A stretch of 64,000 nucleotides of DNA from Ferranicluibacter rubi. GTDB taxonomy: Bacteria > Pseudomonadota > Alphaproteobacteria > Rhizobiales > Rhizobiaceae. Position 1 is the stretch's first letter; each line of letters starts with the position of its first letter. Below are positions 15,283 to 43,500 of the stretch, in pieces. The notes beneath the pieces are model-generated. The model was given only the letters and a program-made list of their open reading frames with translations. It searched no databases and was not told the DNA's origin. The position numbers and the translations under genes were made by a program. The stretch is taken from positions 1-64,000 of the forward strand of contig NZ_JAANCM010000015.1 of the NCBI RefSeq assembly GCF_011603255.1, read 5' to 3'.

Positions 15283-15549
15283 TGAATGTCTAAAAATAAA
15301 TCAAATCTCTGTCGGGTTTTCGCGCATTTTTCCATTGGGCGGCAGATTTCCGGTCGTTGGCCGATGTTTCTGCCTTCATTTTCCACTTACCAACGGTCGC
15401 GCTCACACCTCTGTTCCCGACGCGGCTCAACCGACTGCCGTTCCGGGCCGGAAACTGCCTCGTCTTTTCAATCGCACGGTGGTGAGGCCCCGGTTTCCCA
15501 CGCTTCAGCCGTTAACAAAATCGTCATCTTCGCCAAGTGGGCGCCAAAC

Positions 15550-15565
15550 TGGCACGGCGTGTGCA
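15550..15565 (+). promoter_or_regulatory. Sigma-54 promoter of glnII
   Basis: The element TGGCAC-N5-GTGCA has GG and GC exactly 10 bases apart, the hallmark of -24/-12 promoters. The predicted start is near 15576, about 70 bases before the glnII ATG. Rhizobial glnII is known to be NtrC- and sigma-54-dependent. Confidence 0.78.
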
Positions 15566-15645
15566 TTCCTCTCAGTTCAGAGGGGCCGGTTTTCGGTTTC
15601 GGGCATCGACCTCCTGGATTGCTCACCACCTATGAGAGATTTGTC

Positions 15646-16686
15646 ATGACCAAGTATAAGCTCGAGTACATCTGGCTCGACGGGTACACACCGGTACCGA
15701 ACCTGCGCGGCAAGACGCAGATCAAGGAATTCGACGCGTTCCCGGCACTGGAGCAGTTGCCGCTCTGGGGCTTCGACGGTAGCTCGACCATGCAGGCCGA
15801 AGGCCGCAGCTCTGACTGCGTTCTCAAGCCCGTCGCTCTCTATCCCGATCCGGCCCGTACGAACGGCGTTCTCGTCATGTGCGAAGTCATGATGCCGGAT
15901 GGCGTCACGCCGCATCCGACCAATGCCCGTGCGACGATCCTCGACGACGAAGGCACGTGGTTCGGCTTCGAGCAGGAATACTTCTTCTACCAGAACGGCC
16001 GTCCGCTCGGCTTCCCCGAGCAGGGCTACCCGGCGCCGCAGGGCCCGTACTACACAGGCGTCGGCTACAGCAATGTCGGTGACGTCGCACGCGAGATCGT
16101 CGAAGAGCATCTCGACCTTTGCCTGGAAGCCGGCATCAACCACGAAGGCATCAATGCCGAAGTGGCCAAGGGCCAGTGGGAATTCCAGGTGTTCGGCAAG
16201 GGCTCCAAGAAGGCTGCCGATGAAATCTGGATGGCACGCTACCTTCTGCAGCGCCTGACTGAAAAGTACGGCATCGACATCGAGTACCACTGCAAGCCGC
16301 TCGGCGACACCGACTGGAACGGCTCGGGCATGCACTGCAACTTCTCGACCGCCTACATGCGCGAAGTCGGCGGCAAGGCTTACTTCGAAGCGCTTATGGC
16401 CCAGTTCGAAAAGAACCTCATGGACCACATCGCCGTCTACGGCCCCGACAACGACAAGCGTCTGACGGGCAAGCATGAAACGGCTCCGTGGAACAAGTTC
16501 AGCTACGGCGTTGCCGACCGCGGCGCGTCCATCCGCGTTCCCCACTCCTTCGTCAAGAACGACTACAAGGGCTACCTGGAAGACCGCCGCCCGAACTCGC
16601 AGGGCGACCCCTACCAGATCGCTTCCGCCGTCCTCAAGACGATCTCGGAAGTGTCCACCGAAGGCTACGCTTCGGCTGCAGCCTGA
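15646..16686 (+). CDS. glnII: Glutamine synthetase II (eukaryotic type)
   Basis: The 346-residue enzyme starts at ATG 15646 (MTKYKLEYIWLDG). It carries the beta-grasp segment LPLWGFDGSST, the metal site WFGFEQEYF, the NHEGINAEVAKGQWEFQ segment and the ATP/glutamate region HETAPWNKFSYGVADRGASIRVP. This length and motif set define the GSII type, found in eukaryotes and rhizobia and lacking the adenylylation control of GSI. It condenses ammonium and glutamate with ATP in the cytoplasm. A sigma-54 promoter precedes it and a terminator at 16778-16804 follows. Confidence 0.97.
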   Translation: MTKYKLEYIWLDGYTPVPNLRGKTQIKEFDAFPALEQLPLWGFDGSSTMQAEGRSSDCVLKPVALYPDPARTNGVLVMCEVMMPDGVTPHPTNARATILDDEGTWFGFEQEYFFYQNGRPLGFPEQGYPAPQGPYYTGVGYSNVGDVAREIVEEHLDLCLEAGINHEGINAEVAKGQWEFQVFGKGSKKAADEIWMARYLLQRLTEKYGIDIEYHCKPLGDTDWNGSGMHCNFSTAYMREVGGKAYFEALMAQFEKNLMDHIAVYGPDNDKRLTGKHETAPWNKFSYGVADRGASIRVPHSFVKNDYKGYLEDRRPNSQGDPYQIASAVLKTISEVSTEGYASAAA

Positions 16687-17038: not shown

Positions 17039-17749
17039 TTACGGCGCGGGCGCTGCGGCCGGAGGTGCTACCGGAGCGACTGCGGGGGGCGCGACGGGTG
17101 TTGTCGTCACGGCTGGCGTCGTGGCGGCGCTGCCGTCGATGTAGGGCAGGATTTCCATACCGCCGTGGTAGAGCATGCTGAGTGCCACGTAGAAGATGAC
17201 GGCGAGGCCGACATAGGCGATCCAGCGGTGCTTGTGCAGCAGGTTGGCGATGAAGCTGGCGGCAAGGCCCATGAGCGCGATCGAGACGATCAGGCCGATG
17301 ACGAGCACGGTCGGGTGATCCTGTGCTGCACCGGCGACGGCAAGAACATTGTCGAGCGACATGGAAACGTCGGCGATGACGATCTGCGTTGCCGCCTGCA
17401 GGAAGGTCTTGCGGACGCGGGTTTCGTCTGCGGCATCGCCCGTTTCGTGCGCCGCATTCTGGTCGGCCTGGCGCAGTTCGCTCCACATCTTCCAGCACAC
17501 CCAGAGCAACAGCAGACCGCCGGCGAACTGGAGACCGACAATGGCCAGAAGCTGGACGGTGATGGCAGCAAAGGCGATGCGCAGCACGGTTGCGGCGATA
17601 ATGCCGACGAGGATTGCCTTGCGGCGCTGGTCGGCCGGCAGTCCTGCTGCGGCAAGACCGATGACGATGGCATTATCGCCCGCCAGCACCAGATCAATGG
17701 CGATGACCTGTAGAAATGCGGCCAATCCGGCTGCGGTGAAAATTTCCAT
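17039..17749 (-). CDS. TerC family integral membrane protein
   Basis: The 236-residue protein has about seven membrane segments and two acidic TerC motifs, DLVLAGDNAIVIG (near residue 20) and SMSLDNVLAVAG (near residue 130). The C-terminus is an unusual Pro/Ala/Thr-rich tail of about 35 residues. TerC/YjbE-type proteins are implicated in manganese or other metal export and tellurite resistance. I looked for a yybP-ykoY riboswitch upstream and saw none. Confidence 0.85.
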   Translation of the reverse strand: MEIFTAAGLAAFLQVIAIDLVLAGDNAIVIGLAAAGLPADQRRKAILVGIIAATVLRIAFAAITVQLLAIVGLQFAGGLLLLWVCWKMWSELRQADQNAAHETGDAADETRVRKTFLQAATQIVIADVSMSLDNVLAVAGAAQDHPTVLVIGLIVSIALMGLAASFIANLLHKHRWIAYVGLAVIFYVALSMLYHGGMEILPYIDGSAATTPAVTTTPVAPPAVAPVAPPAAAPAP

Positions 17750-18744: not shown

Positions 18745-18935
18745 CTCGTCTCTCTCCCGCTTGGGGCCCGCCATCCGTTCTGGCTGCCGTCCGTGTCGAT
18801 GGTTCTCCCTTAGTCCATCTCGACCGCAGCGGAAATCGCTTTCGCATGTGAGGCTCAGGGGAGGTGCTCTCTTCGCATGTGCAAAACGCATAGCTGCGAT
18901 GCAATAAATCTGCTCGCACGAGCCGCGGAAAATTG

Positions 18936-18941
18936 TATGAT
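18936..18941 (+). promoter_or_regulatory. Candidate -10 element of the small RNA
   Basis: TATGAT is placed to start transcription at about 18948, immediately before the first CCTCCTCCC hairpin. The -35 region (CTCGCA at 18913-18918) is weak, so an alternative sigma factor is possible. Confidence 0.35.
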
Positions 18942-18947
18942 GAACCT

Positions 18948-19108
18948 ATCGAAGCGATGCACCTCCTCCCGCAAAGCTTCGACGTCCTTGACGATCCTAT
19001 CCTCCTCCCGGGATTGTCGATGGTGGTTGCAGCTTATCCTCCTCCCAAGCTGCCAACCGGAATTGAGAGCCTGCTGCACCTCCTCCCGCAGCGGGCTCTT
19101 TTCGTTTT
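18948..19108 (+). ncRNA. CcsR/cuckoo-type small RNA with four CCUCCUCCC hairpin loops
   Basis: Four hairpins each expose the motif CCTCCTCCC in the loop. Stem 1 is TCGAAGC/GCTTCGA (18949-18982). Stem 2 is GACGATCC/GGATTGTC (18990-19018). Stem 3 is GGTTGCAGCTT/AAGCTGCCAACC (19025-19058). Stem 4 is GAGCCTGCTGC/GCAGCGGGCTC (19067-19098), followed by TTTTCGTTTTC, so it doubles as a Rho-independent terminator. Motif starts are 18962, 19001, 19038 and 19079, a 37-41 base period. Anti-Shine-Dalgarno loops of this kind define the CcsR and cuckoo RNAs of alphaproteobacteria, which respond to stress. Whether it is one 160-nt RNA or two processed units is not known. Confidence 0.75.
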
Positions 19109-19566: not shown

Positions 19567-19684
19567 GCGCCGCAAGCTCGCCAAAACCTCAAGGCCAACC
19601 GCCGGCGCCCTTCATGCCCGTGTAAGCGTTAGCCCCCATATTCTGCCGTTCACCCTCGCTGAACGCATCATCAAGGCGGTCGTG

Positions 19685-19921
19685 ATGCCTCTGTTTTACT
19701 TCAATCTGTTCGATCATGAAGGTTTCTCTCGGGCGGAGGAGCCCTATGCTTTCACGGATGTCGCCGCAGCGCTGGCCGAGGCCGAGGTCGTGCTTGCGGA
19801 AATGGCGCTCGATGGTCTTCCGCGAGGGCCCGACAGCCGCATTGAGGTCGAGGTGCTCGATGTGAACAGGACCTGCGTCGCGAAGGTCAGCCTCGAACTG
19901 CGGCGGCAGATTTTCACCTGA
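19685..19921 (+). CDS. DUF6894-like small protein
   Basis: A 78-residue protein beginning MPLFYFNLFDHEGFSRAEE, with a central Ala/Glu-rich helix and the strand RIEVEVLDVNRTCVAKVSLEL. This resembles the DUF6894 family, common in Rhizobiales and of unknown function. GTG 19682 directly before the ATG is an alternative start. Its 3' end is close to the convergent acyltransferase gene. Confidence 0.7.
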   Translation: MPLFYFNLFDHEGFSRAEEPYAFTDVAAALAEAEVVLAEMALDGLPRGPDSRIEVEVLDVNRTCVAKVSLELRRQIFT

Positions 19922-19934
19922 CACGCGTCGTCGC

Positions 19935-21968
19935 TCAGCGGCTTGTGGAAGCAGTGGCTGTCAGACCACGTACCGCGTCGATGATCGGGGGCATCAGCAG
20001 CCCGGCACCGGCATTCGACAGGTGGTCGTCGTCGAAATAGAAGATCCGGTCCGTCGAAAGGCTGTTGATGCAGCGGCCCTGAACGAAGCTGTCGCAGAAG
20101 ATGGCGGATGGTTTGATTTTCGCGAGTCGGGGATGGTCGAGCGTGTCGAAAGCCGCGATGACGGCGGCGTTGCGGGCGCGGTAGCGATCCGACGAGGTTC
20201 CCAGCGGCTCGACATCCGTCGATGTCATGGCCGCGCGGGCCAGTAGATCCGGTACGTTCCAGCCCGCTTCCGGTATGGGGTAGACGAGAACGACGTTCAC
20301 GCCGTGGTTGAGATAGGCATGGATATCGGCGAGAAACGCAGCGAGCACGCGCTCCTTGCGGGCAGGGTCGGTCTCACCGCCCATCTCGTCGCGACGGTCA
20401 TAAAGGTCGGCATAGGTCGGCTTCAGGGCCTCGATTCCGCCCTCGCCATTGTCGAACGCGTTGCCATCCAGATAGAGCGACCAGCGGCTGACCATGATGA
20501 CGGTCTTGATGCCGCTCTTCGCGATATAGTCCTCCACGCCTTCGAAGAAGGGGTTGCAGCGAAGGTGGTATTTGGCGTTCGAGACCACGAAGCCGGAAAA
20601 GCCGGCACAGGAGGAGTGGGAGAGAGCGTAGAGGTCGAGCCCCGCGCTCGCGAATGCCCGCAGAGCCTCGCCCGTGATCGCGCCGGCATGGGAATCGCCG
20701 ATCAGGATCGTGTCGCTCTTCTCCGTGTTCGGCGTCATGCAGGCGCGGATCGGATGGGGCAGCGTCGCCTCGCCCTTGTCGAACAGACAGGTCGTCATCG
20801 CCGGGTCGGGATGCGCCTGCACCTCGAGCGCCGCGAGCGCCGCAGGTGGCAGGCGGAACGACAGACCGTCGTCCAGCCGCCCCGCTGCTCCGATCACCAT
20901 CATCACAACGGCAACCACGCCGGTCGCGCCGAGAATACGGGGGCCGCTGGTGAGCGCCTTGATCCGGCCGGTGCGAAACGGCGTCTCGACAAAGCGCCAG
21001 GATAGGATGGCGAGGAGAACGGCGGCAACGGTGAGGAGTGCCATCAGAAGAGGCGTCGGCTCGGTCAGGCTGCGAATGCGCGCGAAGGCGAACAGAGGCT
21101 GGTGCCAGAGATAGAGGCTGTAGCTGATCAGCCCGATGCCGGTCAGCAGCCGCAGGGAGAGGAGCCGGTGTACGAGGGTGCCCGGACCGGCAAACAGGAT
21201 GATCAGCGCGGTACCGCCGACCGGCGCCAGTGTCCACGCCGAAGGAAAGGGTGTCCCATCGTCATAGAGGAAGACCCCGGCGAGCACGGCGGCAAGGCCG
21301 ATGAGGGAGAGGACGTCGTTGCCGGGCTGTTCGCGCTTGAGGAGAATGAGCGCGCAGAGCGAGCCGGCCAGCAGTTCCCAGGCGCGGGTGTGCGGAAGGT
21401 AGAAGGCTGCGTTCGGAAAGGCCACTGCGCCGTAGACCGCGAGCGCGAAGCTGGCGAGCGCCATCAGGAGAACGGCGGCGAAGCGGACGCGGGCGCCGTA
21501 ACGATGGAGGATCATGAGCAGGATCGGGAAGACGACGTAATACTGCTCCTCGACCGCGAGGCTCCAGGTGTGCAGCAGAGGCTGCTTCTCGGCGGCGGCG
21601 GCGAAATATCCGCTTTCCTGCCAGAAGAGCACGTTCGACAGGAACAGGCAGACGGCGATGATGCTCTCGCCGAAACTTTTCATCTGCGCCGGCAGCATCC
21701 AGGCCCAGGCGAAGGGCAGGCAGCAGAAGATCACGGTGAAGAGCACGGGCATGATGCGCCGCGCCCGCCGCTCGTAGAAGCCGAGGATAGTGAAGGTGCC
21801 CTTGTCCTGCGCGGCGGCGATGATCGTGGTGATCAGATAGCCGCTGATGACGAAGAACACATCGACGCCGACATAGCCGCCGGCGAACCAGCCGACGCCC
21901 GCATGGAAGAGGATGACCGGGACGACGGCCACGGCCCGGAGGCCATCGATTTCGGGTCGGTGCTGCAT
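19935..21968 (-). CDS. Acyltransferase family protein with C-terminal SGNH domain
   Basis: The 677-residue OafA/YrhL-type protein has an N-terminal acyltransferase-3 membrane domain (about ten helices, residues 1-365) with the EIDGLRAVAV start motif. A periplasmic SGNH hydrolase-like domain follows, with GDSH at 424-427 and the C-terminal DDDH at 646-649. Such proteins transfer acetyl or other acyl groups to lipopolysaccharide, exopolysaccharide or peptidoglycan. No glycan gene cluster surrounds it, so the acceptor cannot be named. It stands alone between a terminator and DUF6894. Confidence 0.88.
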   Translation of the reverse strand: MQHRPEIDGLRAVAVVPVILFHAGVGWFAGGYVGVDVFFVISGYLITTIIAAAQDKGTFTILGFYERRARRIMPVLFTVIFCCLPFAWAWMLPAQMKSFGESIIAVCLFLSNVLFWQESGYFAAAAEKQPLLHTWSLAVEEQYYVVFPILLMILHRYGARVRFAAVLLMALASFALAVYGAVAFPNAAFYLPHTRAWELLAGSLCALILLKREQPGNDVLSLIGLAAVLAGVFLYDDGTPFPSAWTLAPVGGTALIILFAGPGTLVHRLLSLRLLTGIGLISYSLYLWHQPLFAFARIRSLTEPTPLLMALLTVAAVLLAILSWRFVETPFRTGRIKALTSGPRILGATGVVAVVMMVIGAAGRLDDGLSFRLPPAALAALEVQAHPDPAMTTCLFDKGEATLPHPIRACMTPNTEKSDTILIGDSHAGAITGEALRAFASAGLDLYALSHSSCAGFSGFVVSNAKYHLRCNPFFEGVEDYIAKSGIKTVIMVSRWSLYLDGNAFDNGEGGIEALKPTYADLYDRRDEMGGETDPARKERVLAAFLADIHAYLNHGVNVVLVYPIPEAGWNVPDLLARAAMTSTDVEPLGTSSDRYRARNAAVIAAFDTLDHPRLAKIKPSAIFCDSFVQGRCINSLSTDRIFYFDDDHLSNAGAGLLMPPIIDAVRGLTATASTSR

Positions 21969-33825: not shown

Positions 33826-34032
33826 TCATTGCGCAGGCGTGTTCCGGCTGTCGGTGGATGCGGGAAAGCCGATGTCCTTGAGCGTGTCATAGGACAGCGA
33901 TGCCAGAGCGCGTTCCGAGCGCCTGTCCTGCCATGTCTTGACGATGCGATGTGCGAGCGACGTGGCGCCGGCAAGCGCACGCGATCCGAATGACGGGGTT
34001 GAGGGTGAACTCGAGAGGCTGAAGGTAGACAT
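33826..34032 (-). CDS. DUF1127 domain-containing protein
   Basis: A 68-residue protein with a Ser-rich N-terminus and the DUF1127 core WQDRRSERALASLSYDTLKDIGFP at residues 34-57, an Arg-rich helix ending in the usual DIG motif. AAAGGAACC precedes ATG 34032. Small DUF1127 proteins are common in alphaproteobacteria; some are linked to phosphate and carbon physiology and to CcsR-type small RNAs. A terminator follows. A second DUF1127-type gene lies just upstream on the same strand. Confidence 0.82.
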   Translation of the reverse strand: MSTFSLSSSPSTPSFGSRALAGATSLAHRIVKTWQDRRSERALASLSYDTLKDIGFPASTDSRNTPAQ

Positions 34033-42993: not shown

Positions 42994-43112
42994 GGGAGGC
43001 TCGATCTCGTCGGGCGTCTCCGCTAAGGAAACGCTTGAGCTTCGGGTCGGGCGGAGATGCGGACATAGCGCGGAAGATTGACTTGATCCAGCGACGCGCC
43101 TAATCTTGGCGT

Positions 43113-43500
43113 ATGGATGGTTCCCGTGCGGCGCGTGTCGTTCGGGAGTAAATGGGAATGCGAAGGGATGGACCCACACAGGGCATCCTCATCGCAGCCG
43201 ACCCCGCGACTGTAGAACGGTCAGGGTTCGCCATCCGGTCTCGCCTCATGGGCGACGGACCATGCCGCGTGGTGCGGCTGGCGTCACCTGAAGGGCAGGG
43301 CCGGAAAAGCCACTGAAGCAGCGATGCGAGCAACCGGGGTCGGACGCCTCCTTATCTACGAATCGTCCACCTCTTCGACATCGACCCGGCCGTCAAAGGC
43401 CAGGCAAACTGTTTCGGGAAGGCGAGGCGAACCCGTTCTCAGGGTTTGAACCCTGCGTGACGCCGTGAGCCAGGAGACCTGCCAGCCACACCGCGCCGCA
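43113..43500 (+). promoter_or_regulatory. Cobalamin (AdoCbl) riboswitch
   Basis: Conserved parts appear in order: AATGGGAATGCGAAGGG (about 43150-43167), GCAGCCGACCCCGCGACTGTAG (43194-43215), GCCACTG (43309-43315), GGGAAGGCG (43416-43424) and the B12 box AGCCAGGAGACCTGCC (43468-43483). It lies upstream of cobP and should repress the cob operon when adenosylcobalamin is plentiful. The variable stem between GCCACTG and GGGAAGGCG is about 100 bases, far longer than usual, and contains its own nested pairing. The limits of the element are approximate. Confidence 0.92.

Follow-up and report, generated by a model that had tools for sequence, protein, structure and literature searches.

The question raised by this locus is what kind of element is formed by four consecutive hairpins in the window, the stretch of 64,000 nucleotides of Ferranicluibacter rubi DNA that was analysed here, and whether the array is a variant of the CcsR/cuckoo-type RNAs as a first-pass annotation had proposed. 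The motif CCTCCTCCC occurs four times in the window when both strands are searched, always on the plus strand (18962, 19001, 19038 and 19079) and with spacings of 39, 37 and 41. Folding of positions 18945-19106 gave four predicted hairpins with every CCUCCUCCC motif unpaired in its loop, and a minimum free energy of -67.4 kcal/mol (z -6.69, with 0 of 200 shuffled sequences equally stable). The nine loop bases are the same in all four hairpins and the stem sequences differ. Motif search and fold thus agree with the first-pass annotation on four plus-strand hairpins with a common loop motif at a period of 37-41, on identical loops carried by differing stems and on a TATGAT just upstream of the first hairpin. 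A chance array was rejected on the fold statistics and on motif shuffles, shuffled windows containing on average 0.86 copies of CCTCCTCCC and reaching four anywhere in the window in 3 of 100 cases (clustering within 130 nt was outside the simulation). A phage origin was also rejected, as there was no match in the phage collection. The features of the locus are as follows.

18880-18891, plus strand: TGCA-N4-GCAT dyad, a loose counterpart of the TGCA-N6-GCAT of the NfeR1 promoter (spacing N4, not N6)
18888-18900, plus strand: VtlR-type box GCATAGCTGCGAT, as a sequence match exact to the proposed GCAT-N3-TG-N3-T
18934-18941, plus strand: -10-like element TGTATGAT, containing TATGAT at 18936-18941; invariant in 7 of 7 orthologues
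18947-19103, plus strand: putative sRNA of about 157 nt; 5' end placed by analogy with SmelA099, 3' end from the last stem
18949-18982, plus strand: hairpin 1, loop motif 18962-18970, of which only the last base lies inside the Rfam ar14 match
18986-19023, plus strand: hairpin 2, loop motif 19001-19009
19024-19059, plus strand: hairpin 3, loop motif 19038-19046; predicted in each of the 7 orthologues
19065-19103 (fold limits 19065-19100), plus strand: hairpin 4, loop motif 19079-19087; doubles as terminator-like stem

A -35 element could not be fixed upstream of the array, where CTCG (18913-18916) is invariant in 7 of 7 orthologues. The last stem, described at first pass as a terminator, is terminator-like and is the proposed end of transcription, but its T run is short, consisting of four T (19099-19102) that overlap the end of the stem. 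Upstream of the array lie genes for a glutamine synthetase (15466-16686, plus strand) and TerC (17039-17749, minus strand), and downstream those for a DUF6894 protein (19682-19921, plus strand) and an acyltransferase with an SGNH domain (19935-21968, minus strand). Elsewhere in the window, a cobalamin riboswitch was matched at 43101-43500 on the plus strand (43.1 bits, cut-off 31.5).

In Rfam, positions 18982-19103 matched RF02344 (ar14, NfeR1/cuckoo group) with 89.8 bits against a cut-off of 58.8, over model positions 1-123 of 123. Judged by its sequence, the locus is almost certainly a member of the ar14/cuckoo sRNA family. The RF02344 model consists of three hairpins, and hairpin 1 of the locus (18949-18982) precedes the modelled part. 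Five ar14 copies in the F. rubi genome are over the cut-off; four of the five have four motifs, that is, an additional motif hairpin upstream of the Rfam hit. Because the model omits the first hairpin of the four-hairpin form, 5' ends taken from it would be approximately 35 nt too short at such loci. An ar14 copy 74 kb further on the same contig (G000:C6:93173-93289) has three hairpins and no strict VtlR box in the stretch searched.

The F. rubi genome and 40 relatives gave 101 ar14 matches, and each genome of the genus contains five or six (E <= 0.001). The 79 loci over the Rfam cut-off, including the five from F. rubi, were used as a census, in which one mismatch per motif was accepted and the 22 sub-cut-off matches were left out. 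Within the genus, 26 census copies have four hairpins and 8 have three. The remaining 45 are 28 three-hairpin, 8 two-hairpin and 7 four-hairpin copies and 2 entries of a six-hairpin tandem array, which are one array seen twice; other tandem copies have flanks in common. Tandem ar14 copies, which reach six hairpins in a row and have altered loops in some cases, were seen behind a DUF1127-like gene in genomes G014, G018, G021 and G039 (L086/L087, L090/L104, L088/L094 and L109/L111).

The hairpin 1 pattern was found at 117 or more loci in named genomes, with four motifs in 106 of 117 among the matches listed, although such shares are not unbiased because the loci were chosen by their hairpin 1 sequence. 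In the first 80 loci listed, four motifs were present in 71 and the box in 72, and three of the 117 loci (L172, L191 and L228) are short after hairpin 1. Four-motif loci among the matches listed include Rhizobium, Agrobacterium, Shinella, Neorhizobium and Sinorhizobium, and one Ensifer record has two motifs. When the sRNA with its upstream region was compared with plasmids, matches were found in 367 of 72,556 records, 64 of them over at least 80 % of the query. Rhizobium plasmid records (H1, H2, H10, H12 and others) have a hypothetical protein annotated across the sRNA-matching region; these may be spurious genes.

Both flanks of the locus match in the six other genomes of the genus examined, so that the locus is syntenic in 7 of 7. 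Among the orthologues, conservation extends from the upstream box through the terminator and gives way to divergence beyond it, and each of the seven is predicted to form four hairpins whose loop regions stay open, in line with the conservation of stems and loops in close relatives that the first-pass annotation had considered decisive. Compensatory stem changes, also raised there, were found in an alignment of 31 of the 33 four-hairpin loci (A2, from which L071 and L085, with a weaker first hairpin, were left out). In A2, 98.1 % of the pair cells are standard, both sides changed at 13 of 31 pairs, and the covariation score was 0.306 compared to a shuffled mean of 0.160 and to values of at most 0.087 when slid, all of these pair statistics being flattered by the derivation of the structure from the same alignment that was scored. 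Further pair types showed no excess (29, compared to 28.1 in shuffles, 204 of 500 being as high). Hairpin 1 is paired in 98.9 % of the cells of one helix and 97.8 % of those of the other, and 4 of its 9 pairs changed on both sides; in hairpin 2 this is so for 6 of 9 pairs, and the 13 pairs of hairpin 4 are formed in 99.5 % of cells. Covariation was not counted for hairpin 3, since it is absent from the RNAalifold consensus of A2.

The array is best explained as a free-standing, trans-acting ar14/cuckoo-family sRNA with the four-hairpin layout of SmelA099 of Sinorhizobium meliloti, which would have its own promoter, probably activated by LsrB/VtlR, and anti-Shine-Dalgarno loops that would repress translation (probability about 0.9). 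The sRNA class is published, and the unannotated locus is an ordinary example of it.

The alternative that survives best, improbable as it is, holds that the locus is a functionless, decaying extra copy, kept only through recent duplication. There are five ar14 copies in the genome, and in the G003 orthologue (L063) a deletion has made loop 1 one base shorter and loop 3 carries a substitution, hinting at a relaxed need for all four loops. In S. meliloti, moreover, a reliable northern signal is reported for only one of six NfeR1-type copies in the conditions tested. Synteny, structure and the upstream box region are preserved in all seven of the genus's genomes examined, which argues for a maintained locus instead, as does the appearance of SmelA099 in the table of an S. 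meliloti sequencing survey from 2010, where it is listed as a 160-nt RNA.

That 160-nt listing also speaks against a CcsR/CIN1-type locus, which would belong to a DUF1127 stress operon and yield short two-loop units through RNase E cleavage. This reading is still less probable. The loop motif is common to both groups, and a 2011 survey of Rhizobiales suggests that the three- and four-loop forms be grouped in a single family whose number of modules varies, and compares them with the two-loop RS0680a of Rhodobacter (PMC3927594). In relatives, a DUF1127-like ORF was found upstream of 17 of the 79 census loci in a residue-pattern screen (some loci share one gene), and Pfam assigned DUF1127 to 10 of 10 of these ORFs that were submitted. 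At the locus itself, however, no DUF1127 was found among nine neighbouring ORFs submitted to a domain search, and the nearest DUF1127-like match on the contig is 15 kb away (33868-33957 of the window, minus strand) with 19.0 bits, below the cut-off of 23.3. The locus also has a promoter-like sequence and a terminator-like stem of its own. The CcsR part of the first-pass assignment therefore fits less well than ar14/NfeR1, whereas the cuckoo-type anti-Shine-Dalgarno part is borne out by the RF02344 match.

A cis-acting role as leader or attenuator for a downstream gene is more remote again: the terminator-like end and a small plus-strand ORF from 19351 would suit it, but the unit includes everything from box to terminator, recurs five or six times in each genome of the genus at the E value given above, and is followed in the orthologues by divergence directly after the terminator. 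Least credible is a small protein gene across the array, for although one forward frame is stop-free in all seven orthologues and one reverse frame in six of them, the CU-rich loops leave few stops in any frame, the conserved forward frame would need a TTG start (60 aa), the frame of the 136-aa ATG ORF is interrupted by stops in 3 of 7 orthologues, loop 1 of G003 has a one-base deletion and the stem changes are compensatory.

The box at 18888-18900 starts 59 nt before the presumed 5' end of the sRNA and matches the VtlR box as proposed in PMC7486931. According to PMC10746234, an LsrB-type motif lies upstream of NfeR1 and the promoter is bound by LsrB. LsrB and VtlR are described as the same regulator. 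Eisfeld et al. have reportedly studied VtlR and sRNAs. The strict box is present in 5 of 7 orthologues and the other 2 miss it by one base. Among the matches listed, 107 of the 117 named loci have it in the 110 nt preceding the hairpin 1 pattern, 105 boxes being 62-64 nt before the pattern; when 110-nt stretches were drawn at random from the first 80 loci, without removal of genuine boxes, the background was 45 in 3200. The combination of a box with two spaced motifs behind it occurs in 55 of 199 genomes of the family and 28 of 109 genera, whereas the backwards pattern gave none among the matches listed.

Of the four-hairpin copies in the census, 28 of 33 have a strict VtlR-type box upstream; among the others the figure is 7 of 46. 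The 17 DUF1127-linked loci comprise 11 three-hairpin, 2 four-hairpin and 2 two-hairpin copies and the tandem array twice, and a strict box was present in 1 of the 17. The loci behind these box and loop-number counts are related by descent. The four-loop form appears to go with a VtlR/LsrB-type box, as a tendency that is possibly new and not as a rule; it is limited by NfeR1, which has three hairpins and whose promoter is itself bound by LsrB, by SmelA075, which has a near-match box, and by the two orthologues that miss the strict box by one base. The tendency was unreported in a literature search that was not aimed at just that, and the cuckoo paper (PMC4615179), outside the coverage of the search, could hold it. 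The tendency offers a simple, testable idea for why loop number varies in the ar14 family. It is possible, although doubtful, that four-hairpin RNAs make up a functional class of their own, with loop number tracking promoter type: solitary four-loop RNAs would stand under a VtlR/LsrB box at a near-fixed distance, DUF1127-linked copies would be mostly three-loop and rarely boxed, and the extra 5' hairpin would give the RNA more capacity for occupying ribosome-binding sites while LsrB is active.

Read as an sRNA gene from its sequence, the locus would be transcribed from a promoter that the LysR regulator LsrB/VtlR is predicted to activate via the box. The stems would hold the loops out and the last stem would end transcription, and the four loops would be equivalent anti-Shine-Dalgarno modules pairing with purine-rich GGGAGGAG-type ribosome-binding sites. 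Such pairing would block translation, and genes for nutrient uptake and storage are the likely targets. LsrB control, redundancy of the loops and translational repression are carried over by analogy from NfeR1, in which the three loops are described as functionally redundant and mutation of all three seeds abolished the repression of ntrB (PMC10746234).

Duplexes between the loop and GGGAGGAG ribosome-binding sites had energies of -17.7 to -23.4 kcal/mol in five chosen examples; among 118 background stretches the lowest value was -17.8. The pattern GGGAGGAG-N4-11-ATG has 31 sites in the genome, compared to 11 for the backwards pattern, a count which is uninformative on the sRNA because the plain Shine-Dalgarno pattern AAAGGAGA gives 38 compared to 5. 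Retrieval of 30 of the 31 GGGAGGAG sites gave 8 ORFs shorter than 80 aa (one antisense to another ar14 copy) and 22 that were scanned; for the AAAGGAGA control, 30 of 38 sites were retrieved and, with 9 short and 1 duplicate, 20 were scanned. Solute-binding-protein, transporter-subunit/permease or TctC families were found for 8 of the 22 ORFs of at least 80 aa behind GGGAGGAG sites, one of them barely over the threshold (26.2 bits, cut-off 26), and for 2 of the 20 control ORFs (Fisher p 0.07, or 0.17 counting BioY), so that the enrichment of transporters among candidate targets is weak. A divergent pair of a thiolase (phaA-like) and a PHB regulator (phaR-like) gene (L262/L263, G000:C37:264670-264898) has a GGGAGGAG ribosome-binding site on both, and among the matches listed the spacers are identical in G003, G004 and G005. 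No good site was found at ntrB, assigned by position as the ORF before ntrC, where the duplex had -13.2 kcal/mol against a background mean of -10.7 kcal/mol (sd 3.4, 118 stretches of the same locus). Individual mRNA targets are predictions.

Among known systems (PMC10253847, PMC7143759, PMC11975290 and PMC2873474 served as further background), CcsR1-4 and CIN1 of Rhodobacter and other alphaproteobacteria are likewise anti-Shine-Dalgarno RNAs, described as stress-linked. They are, in contrast, transcribed together with a DUF1127 gene and cut by RNase E, whereas no adjacent DUF1127 gene was found at the locus among the nine ORFs submitted. NfeR1 (SmelC397/Smr14C2, RF02344) shares the loop motif and the layout of the last stem, and an LsrB-type motif is described upstream of it, to which the locus has the loose N4 counterpart. 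NfeR1 and the Rfam model have three hairpins, whereas the locus has an additional 5' hairpin, and ntrB, the proven target of NfeR1, was not predicted as a target at the locus. SmelA075 of S. meliloti, which is reportedly raised after a heat shift, has loop motifs at 16, 52 and 92, but is 116 nt with three loops and has no strict VtlR box within 110 nt upstream (the near match has GCAA for GCAT).

The closest relative is SmelA099. The four-hairpin form is already published, section 2.7 of the 2011 survey describing three hairpin loops with CCUCCUCCC in RFMSmelA075 and four in RFMSmelA099 (PMC3927594), and the first-pass view of a four-loop array far from a DUF1127 gene as a notable new variant was accordingly given up. 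SmelA099 differs in the sequences of stems 2 and 3, in its location on pSymA and in its predicted fold, in which four hairpins are formed but two of the nine third-motif bases are paired. Its layout is the same: four exact CCTCCTCCC motifs lie at 16, 53, 89 and 135 of 160 nt, hairpin 1 has one mismatch in 35 bases, the last stem is similar, and a strict VtlR-type box lies at -59, as does the box of the window when counted from the matching base.
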